DNA of 21,380 nucleotides from Prevotella sp. UBA4341 (GTDB lineage Bacteria; Bacteroidota; Bacteroidia; Bacteroidales; Bacteroidaceae). How positions within the stretch are numbered: the first letter of the stretch is position 1; each line of letters begins with the position of its first letter. The stretch covers positions 1 through 21,380 of the forward strand of contig DGTH01000062.1 of assembly GCA_002393705.1 (NCBI GenBank), in the 5' to 3' direction. Made by a program: the position numbers and the translations under genes. The notes beneath the pieces are model-generated. The model saw only the letters and a program-made list of their open reading frames with translations, was not told where the DNA came from and did no database searches. This document shows, piece by piece, positions 3,267 through 7,153 of the stretch.

Positions 3267-3866
3267 TTACAGCTGCTGCAACCGAGCGATGTACTTGCCC
3301 AAAATGTCAAACTCCAGGTTGACAACGCTTCCTACGTGTATGTCACAGAAGTTGGTATGCTCAAGGGTATAGGGGATAATGGCCACCTGGAACGTGTGGT
3401 CAGTAGGGTTACAGACGGTCAGCGAAACACCATTGACGGTGACCGAACCCTTATCTACCGTAAAGTAACCCCGTCGGGCCATTTCGCGGTCAAGTTCATA
3501 ACTGAAAGTGAAGTACTTACTGCCGTCTGCATCGTCGATAGCCGTGCAGCGTGCAGTCTGGTCAACGTGTCCCTGAACGATGTGGCCATCCAAGCGGCCG
3601 TTCAACAGCATGGAACGTTCAATGTTGACCTTATCGCCCACCTGGAGCAGTCCGAGGTTTGAACGGTCCAGCGTCTCCTTCATGGCCGTTACGGTATAGC
3701 AGCCGTCGCTGATGCTGACAACGGTGAGACAGACTCCATTATGGGCTACGCTCTGGTCTATCTTCAGTTCGCCGACAAAGGAGCAACTCAGTGTGAAGTC
3801 GATATTCTCACGGTCCTTACGGATGGCCGTGACGGTGGCAAATTCTTCAATGATTCCGGAAAACAT
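3267..3866 (-). CDS. ribE: Riboflavin synthase, alpha chain
   Basis: The 199-residue product catalyses the dismutation of two 6,7-dimethyl-8-ribityllumazines to riboflavin, the last step of riboflavin synthesis. It begins MFSGIIEEFATV, close to the family start MFTGIIE, and shows the two tandem lumazine-binding barrels: the first with NGVCLTVVSI, the second with GHIVQGHVDQTA and VNGVSLTVCNP. Length is typical (about 200). Start ATG 3866. The gene stands apart from other rib genes. Its upstream region holds a structured RNA ending in U8 only 26 nt before the start codon, and no separate strong promoter is visible in those 26 nt, so expression may depend on read-through of that element. It converges on the TetR-type gene with a 4-bp gap. 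Confidence 0.95.
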   Translation of the reverse strand: MFSGIIEEFATVTAIRKDRENIDFTLSCSFVGELKIDQSVAHNGVCLTVVSISDGCYTVTAMKETLDRSNLGLLQVGDKVNIERSMLLNGRLDGHIVQGHVDQTARCTAIDDADGSKYFTFSYELDREMARRGYFTVDKGSVTVNGVSLTVCNPTDHTFQVAIIPYTLEHTNFCDIHVGSVVNLEFDILGKYIARLQQL

Positions 3867-3892
3867 AATATATTAACAATGAACTAAATCCT

Positions 3893-4078
3893 AAAAAAAA
3901 GAGGTCGTACCGGTGATGTGATGAAAACTCCTATTGCTAAGATATGGGTTTTCTCCGCCTTTGTAATCCACCGGCATAAATGCTACCTTTCGGCGTGGCC
4001 CGCCATTAGCAGGAGAAGGGTTCCCGGTTTTCGATTTAATTTGATGAGTATCCCGATCGAACCGATACGACCTTAACT
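3893..4078 (-). ncRNA. Structured RNA of about 185 nt: 6S-like small RNA or ribE cis-regulatory leader
   Basis: Transcription should start near 4078, just downstream of a TTG-N18-TACCTTTG promoter. The 5' end (4073-4061) pairs with 3914-3902 in a 13-bp helix (12 Watson-Crick, one G-U), immediately followed by C and U8 (3900-3893), so the closing helix itself looks like an intrinsic terminator. Nested inside are GAAAAC/GUUUUC (4032-4027 with 3928-3923), UUCUCC/GGAGAA (4017-4012 with 3956-3951), UGCUA/UAGCA (4011-4007 with 3985-3981) and GGCG/CGCC (4004-4001 with 3995-3992). Large unpaired segments lie on both sides between the closing and inner helices, recalling the central bubble of 6S RNA. 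I do not see FMN, TPP or cobalamin riboswitch consensus sequences. Position directly upstream of ribE allows a cis role. Identity is not established. Confidence 0.7.
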
Positions 4079-4083
4079 GAGTG

Positions 4084-4112
4084 CAAAGGTAATGAAAAAA
4101 CCGCACATCCAA
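4084..4112 (-). promoter_or_regulatory. Promoter of the structured RNA upstream of ribE
   Basis: On the minus strand TACCTTTG (complement of 4084-4091) matches TAnnTTTG, with TTG (complement of 4110-4112) 18 nt upstream. The predicted start point is about 5-7 nt beyond the -7 element, just before the closing helix of the RNA begins at 4073. Confidence 0.7.
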
Positions 4113-4122
4113 GTCTTTGCGG
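4095..4122 (-). terminator. Intrinsic terminator of the membrane sensor gene
   Basis: On the minus strand CCGCA (4122-4118) and TGCGG (4105-4101) form a 5-bp stem with a 12-nt loop, directly followed by T6 (4100-4095). It lies about 30 nt after the sensor stop codon and overlaps the promoter of the next transcription unit, so the two units are tightly insulated. Confidence 0.6.
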
Positions 4123-4150
4123 CGTATTTTCTTCGCCGTCTTGTCATTTT

Positions 4151-7100
4151 TTAACTTTCTGCCTTCTGCAATTGCTCCCAATAGGCAATAGGCGAGAGCC
4201 CCGTCTTCTGCTTGAAGGCACGGTTGAAAAAGATCGGGTCGCTAAAACCAACCTTGTTGGCAATGTCCGAAAGCGTCAGCTCGTCCCGAGTCTGGCGAAC
4301 GAGCTCAATGGCCTTCTTCAGCCGGAAGTCAGTGACAAAGTCCTTGGGTGATAGCCCCGTCAGTGACTCCAGTTCGTTGTAGTATGCAGCGCGCCCTAAG
4401 GCCGACTGGGCTATCATGTCGTCATAACGCAGGTTGGTGTCGGTATAGTGCTTCTCCAGCCAGTCTATCTGGCGCTTCATGAACTCGTATTTCTCCTGCT
4501 GGTCGAAGGCTACATCACGCTGGCCTACACGGAGCACATGCTTTACCCTTTCCTTCTTCCTGCGTTTCTGATAGACAAAGATGAAGACCAGCAGGCCAAG
4601 GGCCAGCAGTACCACGTAAATCCAGACTGCCGTAGAAGACAGGAGCCAGTAAGGCGGCACTTTGACGCTAATGGTGCGAATGTCGTAATGGTCACCGTCC
4701 GACTCTAAGAGAAACGCCTTTACCTTAAACTCGTAGGTTCCTGCCGGCAGTCCGGCGTAGGTGGCAGTGCGCGACTTGTCGGCATTGTGCCATTCGGTGT
4801 CGTAGCCCTCCAGCATATATTGATAATGTACGCGATGCTGCAGCTGGTGGTTCAGCGAGGCGAAGCGGAAGGTGAAGGTGCTGCCGTGGGCGGGCAACTC
4901 CACGAAGCTGCTGTCGGGTACGTAGTACGTGTATTCATCGTTCAGGCGCGGACTCATAGTGACATTGTCTATCAGGAAGTCCGTAATGCGCAGCTTCAGC
5001 TGCGAGCCACGGGCAGCTGTTATCTTCTGGTGATCGACGATGTAGTATCCGTCAACGGTGCCGAAGAGCACGTTGTTATTGGGCATGGCAAAGGCTCCGC
5101 ACTCCGAGCAGATGGTGTTATCGACGCCATCCTGCAGGGTGAACGAGCTGAAGATGCGCGTAGCAGTATTGAACGAGCAGAGGTTGTGGTCGGTAGCCAG
5201 CCAGATGTGTCCGTCCTTGTTGAAAGTAATGCTCTTTATCTCCTCCGAAGGCAGTCCGTCGCGGGTTGTAAAGGTTTCAAACATCCAGTTGCCGTCGTCA
5301 TCCTTGCCCACGGCGTGGCTCAGTCCGCCGCCATTGGTGCCTATCCACATGGAGTTGTCGGGCGCACAAGCCATGCAGACGATGTCGTCGCTTTCCATGT
5401 TGTAGTCAGCATGTTCACTGTTCTCAACGATGGTCACGGTGGGTTCCTTTCCTTTCTTCATCGACATGATGAGCAGTCCGTCGGTGGTGCCCACCCAGAC
5501 GTTGTCCTGCTTATCCAAGGCGATGTTCCTGATCTTCATGTACGTGTCCTTGGGGTATTGGCTAATGCCGTTCTGCGGGTTCAGCACGCGGTAACCGCCT
5601 TTTCCGTTGGGCATGAGGATGTTGATGCCGCCGCCGTAGGTGCCTATCCAGATGTTGCCCTGCCGGTCCTCGACGGTGTTGTAGGCGTTGTCGTCGTTCA
5701 GGCTGTTGGGGTTACCCTCTTCATGATGGAAGAAGGTCATCTGGTACGCATTGCCGGCGGGTGTCAGCTTGATGACGCCGTTGCCCTTGCAGCTCAGCCA
5801 GTAGTTGCCCTTCCGGTCCTTGTTGATGCCGTAGATGCGGCCCAGCTGGTTACCCTTGCCGTCGCCGTGCAGGTCGGTCCGGCTACCGTCGGCGCTGAAG
5901 ATGGCCAGCGTGTTAGCCTTGTTGCCTATGAGGAGTTTCTTGCGTTCTTTGTCGTAGTAGATGGCACGTATCTCGTTGCTGAAGCCCGTCTCGTTGTCGA
6001 AGAGCTTCTTGCGCACAATCGTATTCTTCAATATTTCGAGTTTCTCCAGTCCTCGCCGGCTGGTGCTTTCCCAGATGATGCCGTCAGTCATGGGCTGGAA
6101 GGCATATACGGTGTTCGAGAGGTTCCAGGGGTTCGACGGGTCGTTGTGGAAGAACTCCATCTGGTCCGTCTCGCGGTTGTAGTAGCCGAAGCCTCCGTGG
6201 TTCATGCTGACCCATACGGTGTTGTTCACCTCCTTGATGACGGCGCCCCTCACGTCGTACTGGGGCACGAGCACCTGCTGCTGGAAGCTCTTGATGTTGC
6301 CCGTCTTGGGGTTCAGGCGCGAAATGCCCTGTACGTCCTGCGAGAACCAGATGAGTCCCTGGCTGTCGGCAAAGATGGACGATATGGGAATCTGCAGCTC
6401 GGCAATGACCTCGGGCTCCTGACCGGGCTTGTAGCAGATAATCTTTCCTGACCGCGTGCCCATGTAGATGCCGTATCCGTCGGAGTGTACGCAGCGAATG
6501 ATCTCGTCCTCTACGAAACCATGCTGTTCCAGCTCATTCTTCGAGCGCGATATCTGGTGCAGTCCTCGGGTCGTGGCAGCCCAGAGCGAGCCTTTGTAGC
6601 CTTCCACGACGAATTTGGGCTTCAGGTCGCCAGTCTTGATGAGCTGTGTCTGCACCTTGTTGTTCTCCAAGCGCATCTTGTAGATACCCACGCCCTCGAT
6701 GATGGCATAGACCCAGCCGTCCTGGCTGACGTAGAGCCGGTGGCGCGTCTTGAAGTTCTGGTAGCCGCTGATGTGCTGCAGCGGGTTGATGATGGTGTCC
6801 GTGGGGCGGTTCAGCACAAAGATTCGTCCGTCGTACATGCGCAGCCAGATGTTCTGGCTGTGGTCTATATACATATCTAATATACGGTTGTGCAGCAGGG
6901 GTATGCCGCTGGCGTTGCCCGTAGCGTAGTTGAAGAAGCTGAAGCCGTCGAAGCGCGACAGTCCGTTCCAGGAGCCCACCCAGACGTAGCCGTAGTCATC
7001 GACCACAATGTCGGCAATGGTGTTGCTGGCCAGTCCCTCGTCGGTAGAGTAGTGGGAGAGTGCTGCCTGCATCTGCTGGCCTTTGGCCTGCAAGCAACCC

Positions 7101-7153
7101 ATCAGTACGGCGATGGTCAGTAGTAGTTTTTCAAGACGGTTTTTTAGCTTCAT
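4151..7153 (-). CDS. Membrane sensor: two-component-type propellers, Y_Y_Y domain, TM helix and AraC DNA-binding domain, without kinase
   Basis: The 1000-residue product has a signal peptide (about residues 1-25), then about 14 Reg_prop-type blades with the W-[IVL]-G/A-T-x-x-G-L pattern (examples WVGSWNGLSRFDG, WIGTYGGGINIL, WVGTTDGLLIMS), enough for two seven-bladed propellers. A Y_Y_Y domain (about 735-830, including YQYMLEGYDTEWHNAD) and one transmembrane helix (about 840-861) follow. Only some 35 residues later comes an AraC-type helix-turn-helix domain (about 895-992, with LTLSDIANKVGFSDPIFFNRAFK). Classical Bacteroides hybrid two-component sensors have a histidine kinase and receiver between membrane and AraC domain; neither is present and there is no room for them. 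It is therefore a one-component membrane regulator by architecture. Ligand unknown: no polysaccharide-utilisation genes adjoin it. A promoter (7182-7212) and a terminator (4095-4122) flank it. Confidence 0.9.
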   Translation of the reverse strand: MKLKNRLEKLLLTIAVLMGCLQAKGQQMQAALSHYSTDEGLASNTIADIVVDDYGYVWVGSWNGLSRFDGFSFFNYATGNASGIPLLHNRILDMYIDHSQNIWLRMYDGRIFVLNRPTDTIINPLQHISGYQNFKTRHRLYVSQDGWVYAIIEGVGIYKMRLENNKVQTQLIKTGDLKPKFVVEGYKGSLWAATTRGLHQISRSKNELEQHGFVEDEIIRCVHSDGYGIYMGTRSGKIICYKPGQEPEVIAELQIPISSIFADSQGLIWFSQDVQGISRLNPKTGNIKSFQQQVLVPQYDVRGAVIKEVNNTVWVSMNHGGFGYYNRETDQMEFFHNDPSNPWNLSNTVYAFQPMTDGIIWESTSRRGLEKLEILKNTIVRKKLFDNETGFSNEIRAIYYDKERKKLLIGNKANTLAIFSADGSRTDLHGDGKGNQLGRIYGINKDRKGNYWLSCKGNGVIKLTPAGNAYQMTFFHHEEGNPNSLNDDNAYNTVEDRQGNIWIGTYGGGINILMPNGKGGYRVLNPQNGISQYPKDTYMKIRNIALDKQDNVWVGTTDGLLIMSMKKGKEPTVTIVENSEHADYNMESDDIVCMACAPDNSMWIGTNGGGLSHAVGKDDDGNWMFETFTTRDGLPSEEIKSITFNKDGHIWLATDHNLCSFNTATRIFSSFTLQDGVDNTICSECGAFAMPNNNVLFGTVDGYYIVDHQKITAARGSQLKLRITDFLIDNVTMSPRLNDEYTYYVPDSSFVELPAHGSTFTFRFASLNHQLQHRVHYQYMLEGYDTEWHNADKSRTATYAGLPAGTYEFKVKAFLLESDGDHYDIRTISVKVPPYWLLSSTAVWIYVVLLALGLLVFIFVYQKRRKKERVKHVLRVGQRDVAFDQQEKYEFMKRQIDWLEKHYTDTNLRYDDMIAQSALGRAAYYNELESLTGLSPKDFVTDFRLKKAIELVRQTRDELTLSDIANKVGFSDPIFFNRAFKQKTGLSPIAYWEQLQKAES

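Follow-up and report, generated by a model that had tools for sequence, protein, structure and literature searches.

A Bacteroidales-1 RNA upstream of ribE in Prevotella sp. UBA4341 is most likely a 6S RNA

In Escherichia coli, 6S RNA and ygfA are cotranscribed. For the Bacteroidetes, pRNAs have reportedly been predicted (by Wehner in 2014, according to PMC7366714 and PMC9788540, which cite that work). The Rfam family RF01693, Bacteroidales-1, is itself already known: its Rfam description reads “6S-Bacteroidales RNA suggested”, and Table 1 of Weinberg 2010 (PMC2864571) lists it with a question mark for both cis-regulation and switch function. A 6S RNA has been reported in Bacteroides thetaiotaomicron, along with evidence from dRNA-seq for two classes of pRNA; the portion of that report covering this RNA does not name RF01693, and the paper gives TAnnTTTG as the primary promoter motif of Bacteroidetes (PMC7366714).

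The window analysed here, 21,380 nucleotides of Prevotella sp. UBA4341 (contig DGTH01000062.1), contains a structured RNA directly upstream of ribE, for which the original prediction offered two readings: a stand-alone 6S-like RNA, or a leader whose closing helix acts as the terminator controlling ribE, possibly as a flavin-related sensor. We find that this RNA belongs, with good conservation, to an already known 6S family and is most likely the Bacteroidetes version of 6S RNA, not an orphan riboswitch. A 6S RNA gene with its own promoter, 6S action on RNA polymerase and read-through of a minority of transcripts into ribE would jointly explain the observations, and we put the probability of this explanation at roughly 90%.

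Family membership and promoter of the RNA

A cmscan search of the window gave a full-length match to RF01693 at 4072-3897 on the minus strand (model positions 1-179 of 179; 130.1 bits against a gathering cut-off of 60 bits; E-value 7e-22), the only above-cut-off Rfam match in the window. Bacteroidales-1 was among the families proposed for a covariance-model search, and the match supports the stand-alone 6S-like reading. The general 6S model RF00013, proposed alongside it, gave no match in the source genome (5 of 14 control genomes matched), which rules out membership of that family. The FMN riboswitch model RF00050 was likewise without a match in the source genome (7 of 14 controls matched), ruling out this identity. 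Because RF00013 did not match, the 6S label depends on the description of RF01693, its link to the 6S-Flavo family RF01685, the topology of the RNA and the B. thetaiotaomicron report.

The source genome, which is 62% complete, carries one copy of RF01693. The family was found in 130 of 150 genomes of the genus, including 68 of the 69 near-complete ones, and is single-copy there except in one genome (G098, 61% complete). This genome has two copies (L030 and L109), only one of which is followed by ribE, and is possibly a mixed assembly. Across the order, 106 of the 393 genomes drawn had a match (76 above the cut-off), and 287 had none.

RF01685 (cut-off 85 bits) gave no match in the source genome, and across the order it matched 28 of the 393 genomes, in every case below its cut-off. 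Five of these 28 (G190, G325, G346, G469 and G502) have RF01685 and RF01693 at the same place and on the same strand; the other 23 have no RF01693 match. When ten loci were scanned with cmscan, both models fell on L065, L068, L069 and L130, of which L069 and L130 are one place. Twelve RF01685 loci (L061-L072) begin with AAACUC in all cases and end with GRGUUU in 11, and most show, as read by eye, complementary flanks followed by a U run. RF01693 and RF01685 look like one gene, and neither has a clan in the copy of Rfam that was searched.

The RNA gene occupies 3893-4078 of the minus strand, so that the transcript would measure about 186 nt from a putative start near 4078, in line with the 185 nt or so first estimated. 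Just upstream, at 4091-4084, lies the -7 box TACCTTTG, which fits the TAnnTTTG motif of the Bacteroidetes primary sigma factor and not sigma-70. A TTGG farther upstream (4112-4109) may be an additional promoter element. No sigma-70-like promoter scores on the minus strand of the locus, and a promoter of that type was ruled out for the RNA. The consensus promoter originally proposed is thus present, but as a Bacteroidetes-type promoter. The gene upstream (4151-7153, minus strand) ends at 4151 and encodes a protein of 1000 aa with an AraC-like C-terminus and below-cut-off NCBIfam matches to PorZ (residues 540-665) and AraC-type regulators (about 885-998); at 4 of 60 loci, counting that of the window, a tblastn relative adjoins the RNA.

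Relatives of the RNA were collected from the genus as 70 of its 131 matches (the best 30 and 40 lower down, largely from complete genomes, and so not a random sample) and from the order as 70 of the 106 matches (those above the cut-off, 76 in number, except for six that include the window's own); two of these 70 belong to the same genus. In the 60 nt preceding the RNA, a strict TAnnTTTG is present at 68 of the 72 loci of the genus and at 58 of the 68 others, where base shuffles predict about 2.4 and 3.3; in a stretch farther upstream it occurs at 0 of 72 and 5 of 68. Among named Prevotella-type loci (the best 80 of 271), 64 have the strict box before the RNA and 16 do not. As expected of the 6S class, the gene is free-standing with a promoter of its own, the box preceding it at 126 of the 140 loci pooled and ribE adjoining it at none of the 68 outside the genus.

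Secondary structure and covariation

From the 140 oriented RNA loci, four with partial or odd matches (L103, L104, L135, L146) and 29 redundant ones were set aside, and the remaining 107 non-redundant relatives were aligned by sequence alone. The structure that was counted had been specified once the RNAalifold consensus for these sequences and the columns of a previous alignment of them had been seen, with the apical helices taken from Rfam. In this structure 90.2% of cells are paired, compared with 38-49% after a shift of the 3' partners by 1-3 columns, a comparison that leans toward the structure because it was chosen with the sequences in view. Stronger support comes from two-sided changes, which occur at 30 of its 39 pairs; none of 500 shuffles attained any of the five structure measures.

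The two ends of the RNA pair over 13 bp and lead into a run of eight U, as originally described. In this closing helix, P1, positions 4073-4061 pair with 3914-3902 in 13 consecutive pairs, one of them G-U, and the compensating changes that had been sought among relatives are found at all 13. (The program divides P1 at an alignment gap into 11 pairs of helix 1, with 86.4% of cells paired, and two of helix 2.) An end-to-end helix of this length arose in one of 5000 base shuffles. A single C (3901) separates its 3' strand from the U8 run (3900-3893), the probable intrinsic terminator of the RNA. Short-loop intrinsic terminators were also considered and rejected at the RNA, the sole terminator-like site in 3700-4300 lying at 4253-4237, inside the upstream gene.

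Inside P1, the RNA consists of the P2 helices, a central bubble and an apical domain (3946-4025) made up of P3a, P3b, P4 and P5. P2a has two-sided changes at one of its three pairs. P2b, beside the bubble, joins 4052-4046 to 3930-3923; its middle pair (4050/3925) is a U-U mismatch in the window, and one P2b pair is mismatched in most of the genus. Six of its seven pairs are standard in at least 99 of the 107 relatives, so that conservation exceeds covariation (two-sided changes at two of seven pairs; at 4048/3928, C-G becomes G-C in five relatives and U-A in one). P3a has such changes at one of three pairs, and it and P2b, which flank the bubble, are supported mainly by conservation. In the apical domain, conserved helices with compensatory change, one of the features expected of RF01693, are evident, with two-sided changes at 9 of 9 pairs of P3b and P4 taken together and 4 of 4 of P5. 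Covariation thus backs P3b, P4 and P5, and P2 and P3a less strongly. The pairs in Rfam's structure line for RF01693 all fall within this apical part; P1 and P2 are left unpaired there, although their pairs form in most relatives.

The 5' strand of the bubble (4045-4026, 20 nt) opens with the AUCA of a conserved CUCAUCA (4048-4042) and is likely to be the pRNA template. Although no pairs are assigned to this strand in the structure counted, positions A34, C36 and A37 in the aligned RNA show conservation of 90% or more. The 3' strand (3945-3931, 15 nt) lies between P3a and P2b. A search of the bubble strands for imitations of TAnnTTTG gave, in the window RNA, TTAATTTG in the complement of the 5' strand and TATCTTAG in the 3' strand, but by eye neither is conserved among the aligned relatives. 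Taken together, the helices describe a long stem that closes the RNA, then a bubble with strands of 20 and 15 nt and a stem at the apex, the topology of a 6S RNA at its usual length of about 180-200 nt.

Folding of the single sequence by energy is less informative. P1 is supported (pair probabilities of 0.77-1.0 for five pairs sampled), whereas P2b is not favoured, eight sampled pairs of P2, P3 and P5 reach 0.002-0.30, and the inner helices given differ from those supported by the family. Nested inner helices exist, as originally claimed, but energy alone fails to select those that the family supports. Against dinucleotide shuffles, the whole RNA stands out no more than moderately in fold energy (z = -2.70, with 4 of 200 shuffles folding equally well), which might suit a chance hairpin or a degraded, functionless sequence; set against the RF01693 E-value and the two-sided changes at 30 of 39 pairs, such an explanation is already refuted and retains a negligible probability.

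Linkage to ribE and probable read-through

The gene downstream, ribE (3866-3267, minus strand), encodes a riboflavin synthase of 199 aa (NCBIfam, 218.6 bits; cut-off 155) and is a likely second cistron, its ATG at 3866 lying 26 nt past the U8 run. ribE follows on the same strand at 63 of 72 genus loci, 16-402 nt past the RNA match; outside the genus it was found within 1.5 kb at none of 68 loci, 67 of which have downstream sequence. (One locus, L146, has no downstream sequence and is uninformative about ribE, and the RF01685 loci L061-L072 were kept out of these counts.) Starting from ribE, the RNA lies directly upstream, at 17-117 nt, in all 80 named Prevotella-type loci (best 80 of 271); within the same best 80 of 271, the closest named relatives of the window's ribE are Prevotella and Xylanibacter records, with 92% identity at best. 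Eight congeners have the RNA without an adjacent ribE. Two of these have ribE elsewhere, one has a copy elsewhere of 42% identity, and five have kept the RNA with no detectable ribE (three genomes at least 93% complete and two at 86%). In a limited literature check at keyword level, no link between 6S RNA and ribE was recognised in print.

This distribution bears on the idea that the RNA is a cis-acting sensor of flavin or another ligand whose closing helix switches as the terminator of ribE. Several features are consistent with such a role: the position of the RNA shortly before ribE at most genus loci; U runs that are longer within the genus than outside (a longest T run of at least five behind the RNA at 43 of 70 genus loci compared with 18 of 67 others, L103, L104 and L146 being left out); the rarity of FMN riboswitches (RF00050) in the genus (2 of 100 genomes, versus 40 of 198 drawn across the order); and the question marks for Bacteroidales-1 in the table of Weinberg 2010 (PMC2864571). 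However, the RNA is conserved across the order without an adjacent ribE (0 of 68 loci), its conserved core is common to those lineages, and five of the eight congeners lacking an adjacent ribE keep the RNA with none detectable. The RNA can hence do without ribE, which argues against flavin sensing as its main role; we regard a flavin sensor as unlikely, and a ligand-responsive switch at the closing helix as very improbable overall.

The way in which ribE itself is transcribed is a separate matter. In the 158 nt before ribE, the strict TAnnTTTG is absent from all 63 genes linked to the RNA and present in 23 of 32 unlinked genes (29 from 30 picked RNA-bearing genomes and three from the eight congeners), a difference with a Fisher p of 4e-15 that ignores relatedness among mutually related loci. 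The two congeners with ribE elsewhere, at 81-82% identity to that of the window, both have the box 39 nt before it. If one mismatch is tolerated, the linked genes show no more boxes than chance predicts (7 found and 8.7 expected among the 22 loci whose gap is 60 nt or longer), whereas unlinked genes exceed the chance level (28 of 32, 17.5 expected). A box lies within the gap between RNA and ribE at one of the named loci (best 80 of 271). Because linked ribE genes are without the box that unlinked ones mostly have, transcription from the 6S promoter probably reads through into ribE. Judged from sequence, ribE in this genus has apparently lost any promoter of its own and come to rely on such read-through, and the simplest reading is that it is probably a second cistron behind the 6S RNA. 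Of the leader originally envisaged, the putative transcription unit with ribE behind a closing-helix terminator would survive, on the evidence of the missing ribE motif, and the flavin sensor would not.

The missing motif would also be accounted for if a plain 6S RNA terminated with full efficiency and ribE were served by a non-canonical promoter of its own in the short gap. The main motif is found at 81% of primary start sites in B. thetaiotaomicron, not at all of them (PMC7366714), and among the 32 unlinked ribE genes 9 are likewise without a strict box. Where the gap measures 40 nt or more, 11 of 34 loci score for an extra hairpin with a T-rich tail before ribE, two of the 11 having stems of A and T only. 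Against this, gaps of at most 30 nt, found at 29 of the named loci (best 80 of 271), are too short for a usual promoter, and relaxing the motif reveals no excess before linked genes, so that we consider a separate ribE promoter unlikely, though not negligible as an alternative. Nine congeners (L011, L013, L016, L020, L023, L025, L074, L100 and L110) have a hairpin with G/C in its stem and a T-rich tail between RNA and ribE, seven of them with the stem GGCAGG...CCTGCC, which looks like the addition of a second terminator.

Read-through from the 6S gene, our preferred reading, can be taken further. In Prevotella the 6S gene may have captured ribE, which would have lost its promoter and be made only by read-through past the closing-helix terminator; we give this stronger version about even odds. 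If it holds, a single transcript would serve both as a global regulator of polymerase and as leader for a vitamin gene, with the output of riboflavin synthase coupled to termination of the 6S RNA and to growth state.

Proposed mechanism and comparison with known systems

We propose that the 6S RNA gene would be transcribed from its own promoter of the sigma-ABfr type, with transcription ending mainly at the U run behind the closing helix. The folded RNA, through its closing stem, central bubble and apical stem, would imitate an open promoter and, in the source species, is predicted to bind RNA polymerase holoenzyme. With the 5' bubble strand as template, polymerase would then make a short putative pRNA, upon which the 6S RNA would be released. 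A minority of transcripts may read through into ribE, which in the genus has no recognisable promoter of its own.

The analysis adds covariation evidence for a closing stem that Rfam's structure line does not show, a bridge in sequence between RF01693 and RF01685, and a likely 6S-ribE transcription unit in the genus. A family whose cis-regulatory and switch status were both entered as “?” (Weinberg 2010, PMC2864571) is assigned, most likely, to 6S RNA. The locus also offers a testable case of a metabolic gene that may live on 6S read-through, in a genus where FMN riboswitches are rare.

Compared with the systems described so far, the window RNA shares with the FMN riboswitch RF00050 a position upstream of a riboflavin gene, but the source genome has no match to that model and the RNA is conserved without an adjacent ribE. 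With Bacteroidales-1, RF01693, it has in common the apical domain and conserved core over a full-length match, and it differs in P1 and P2, which are absent from the Rfam line, and in the ribE that mostly stands behind the gene in its genus. RF01685 shares places with RF01693 in five genomes, whereas the genome of the window lacks a match to it and all matches in the order are below the cut-off. The RNAs of RF00013 (SsrS of E. coli, 6S-1 and 6S-2 of B. subtilis) differ in giving no model match here and in promoter type; the closing stem, central bubble and apical stem are the same, and so is a linked downstream gene, as described for zapA-6S-ygfA in E. coli (PMC9788540), with ribE in the place of ygfA.
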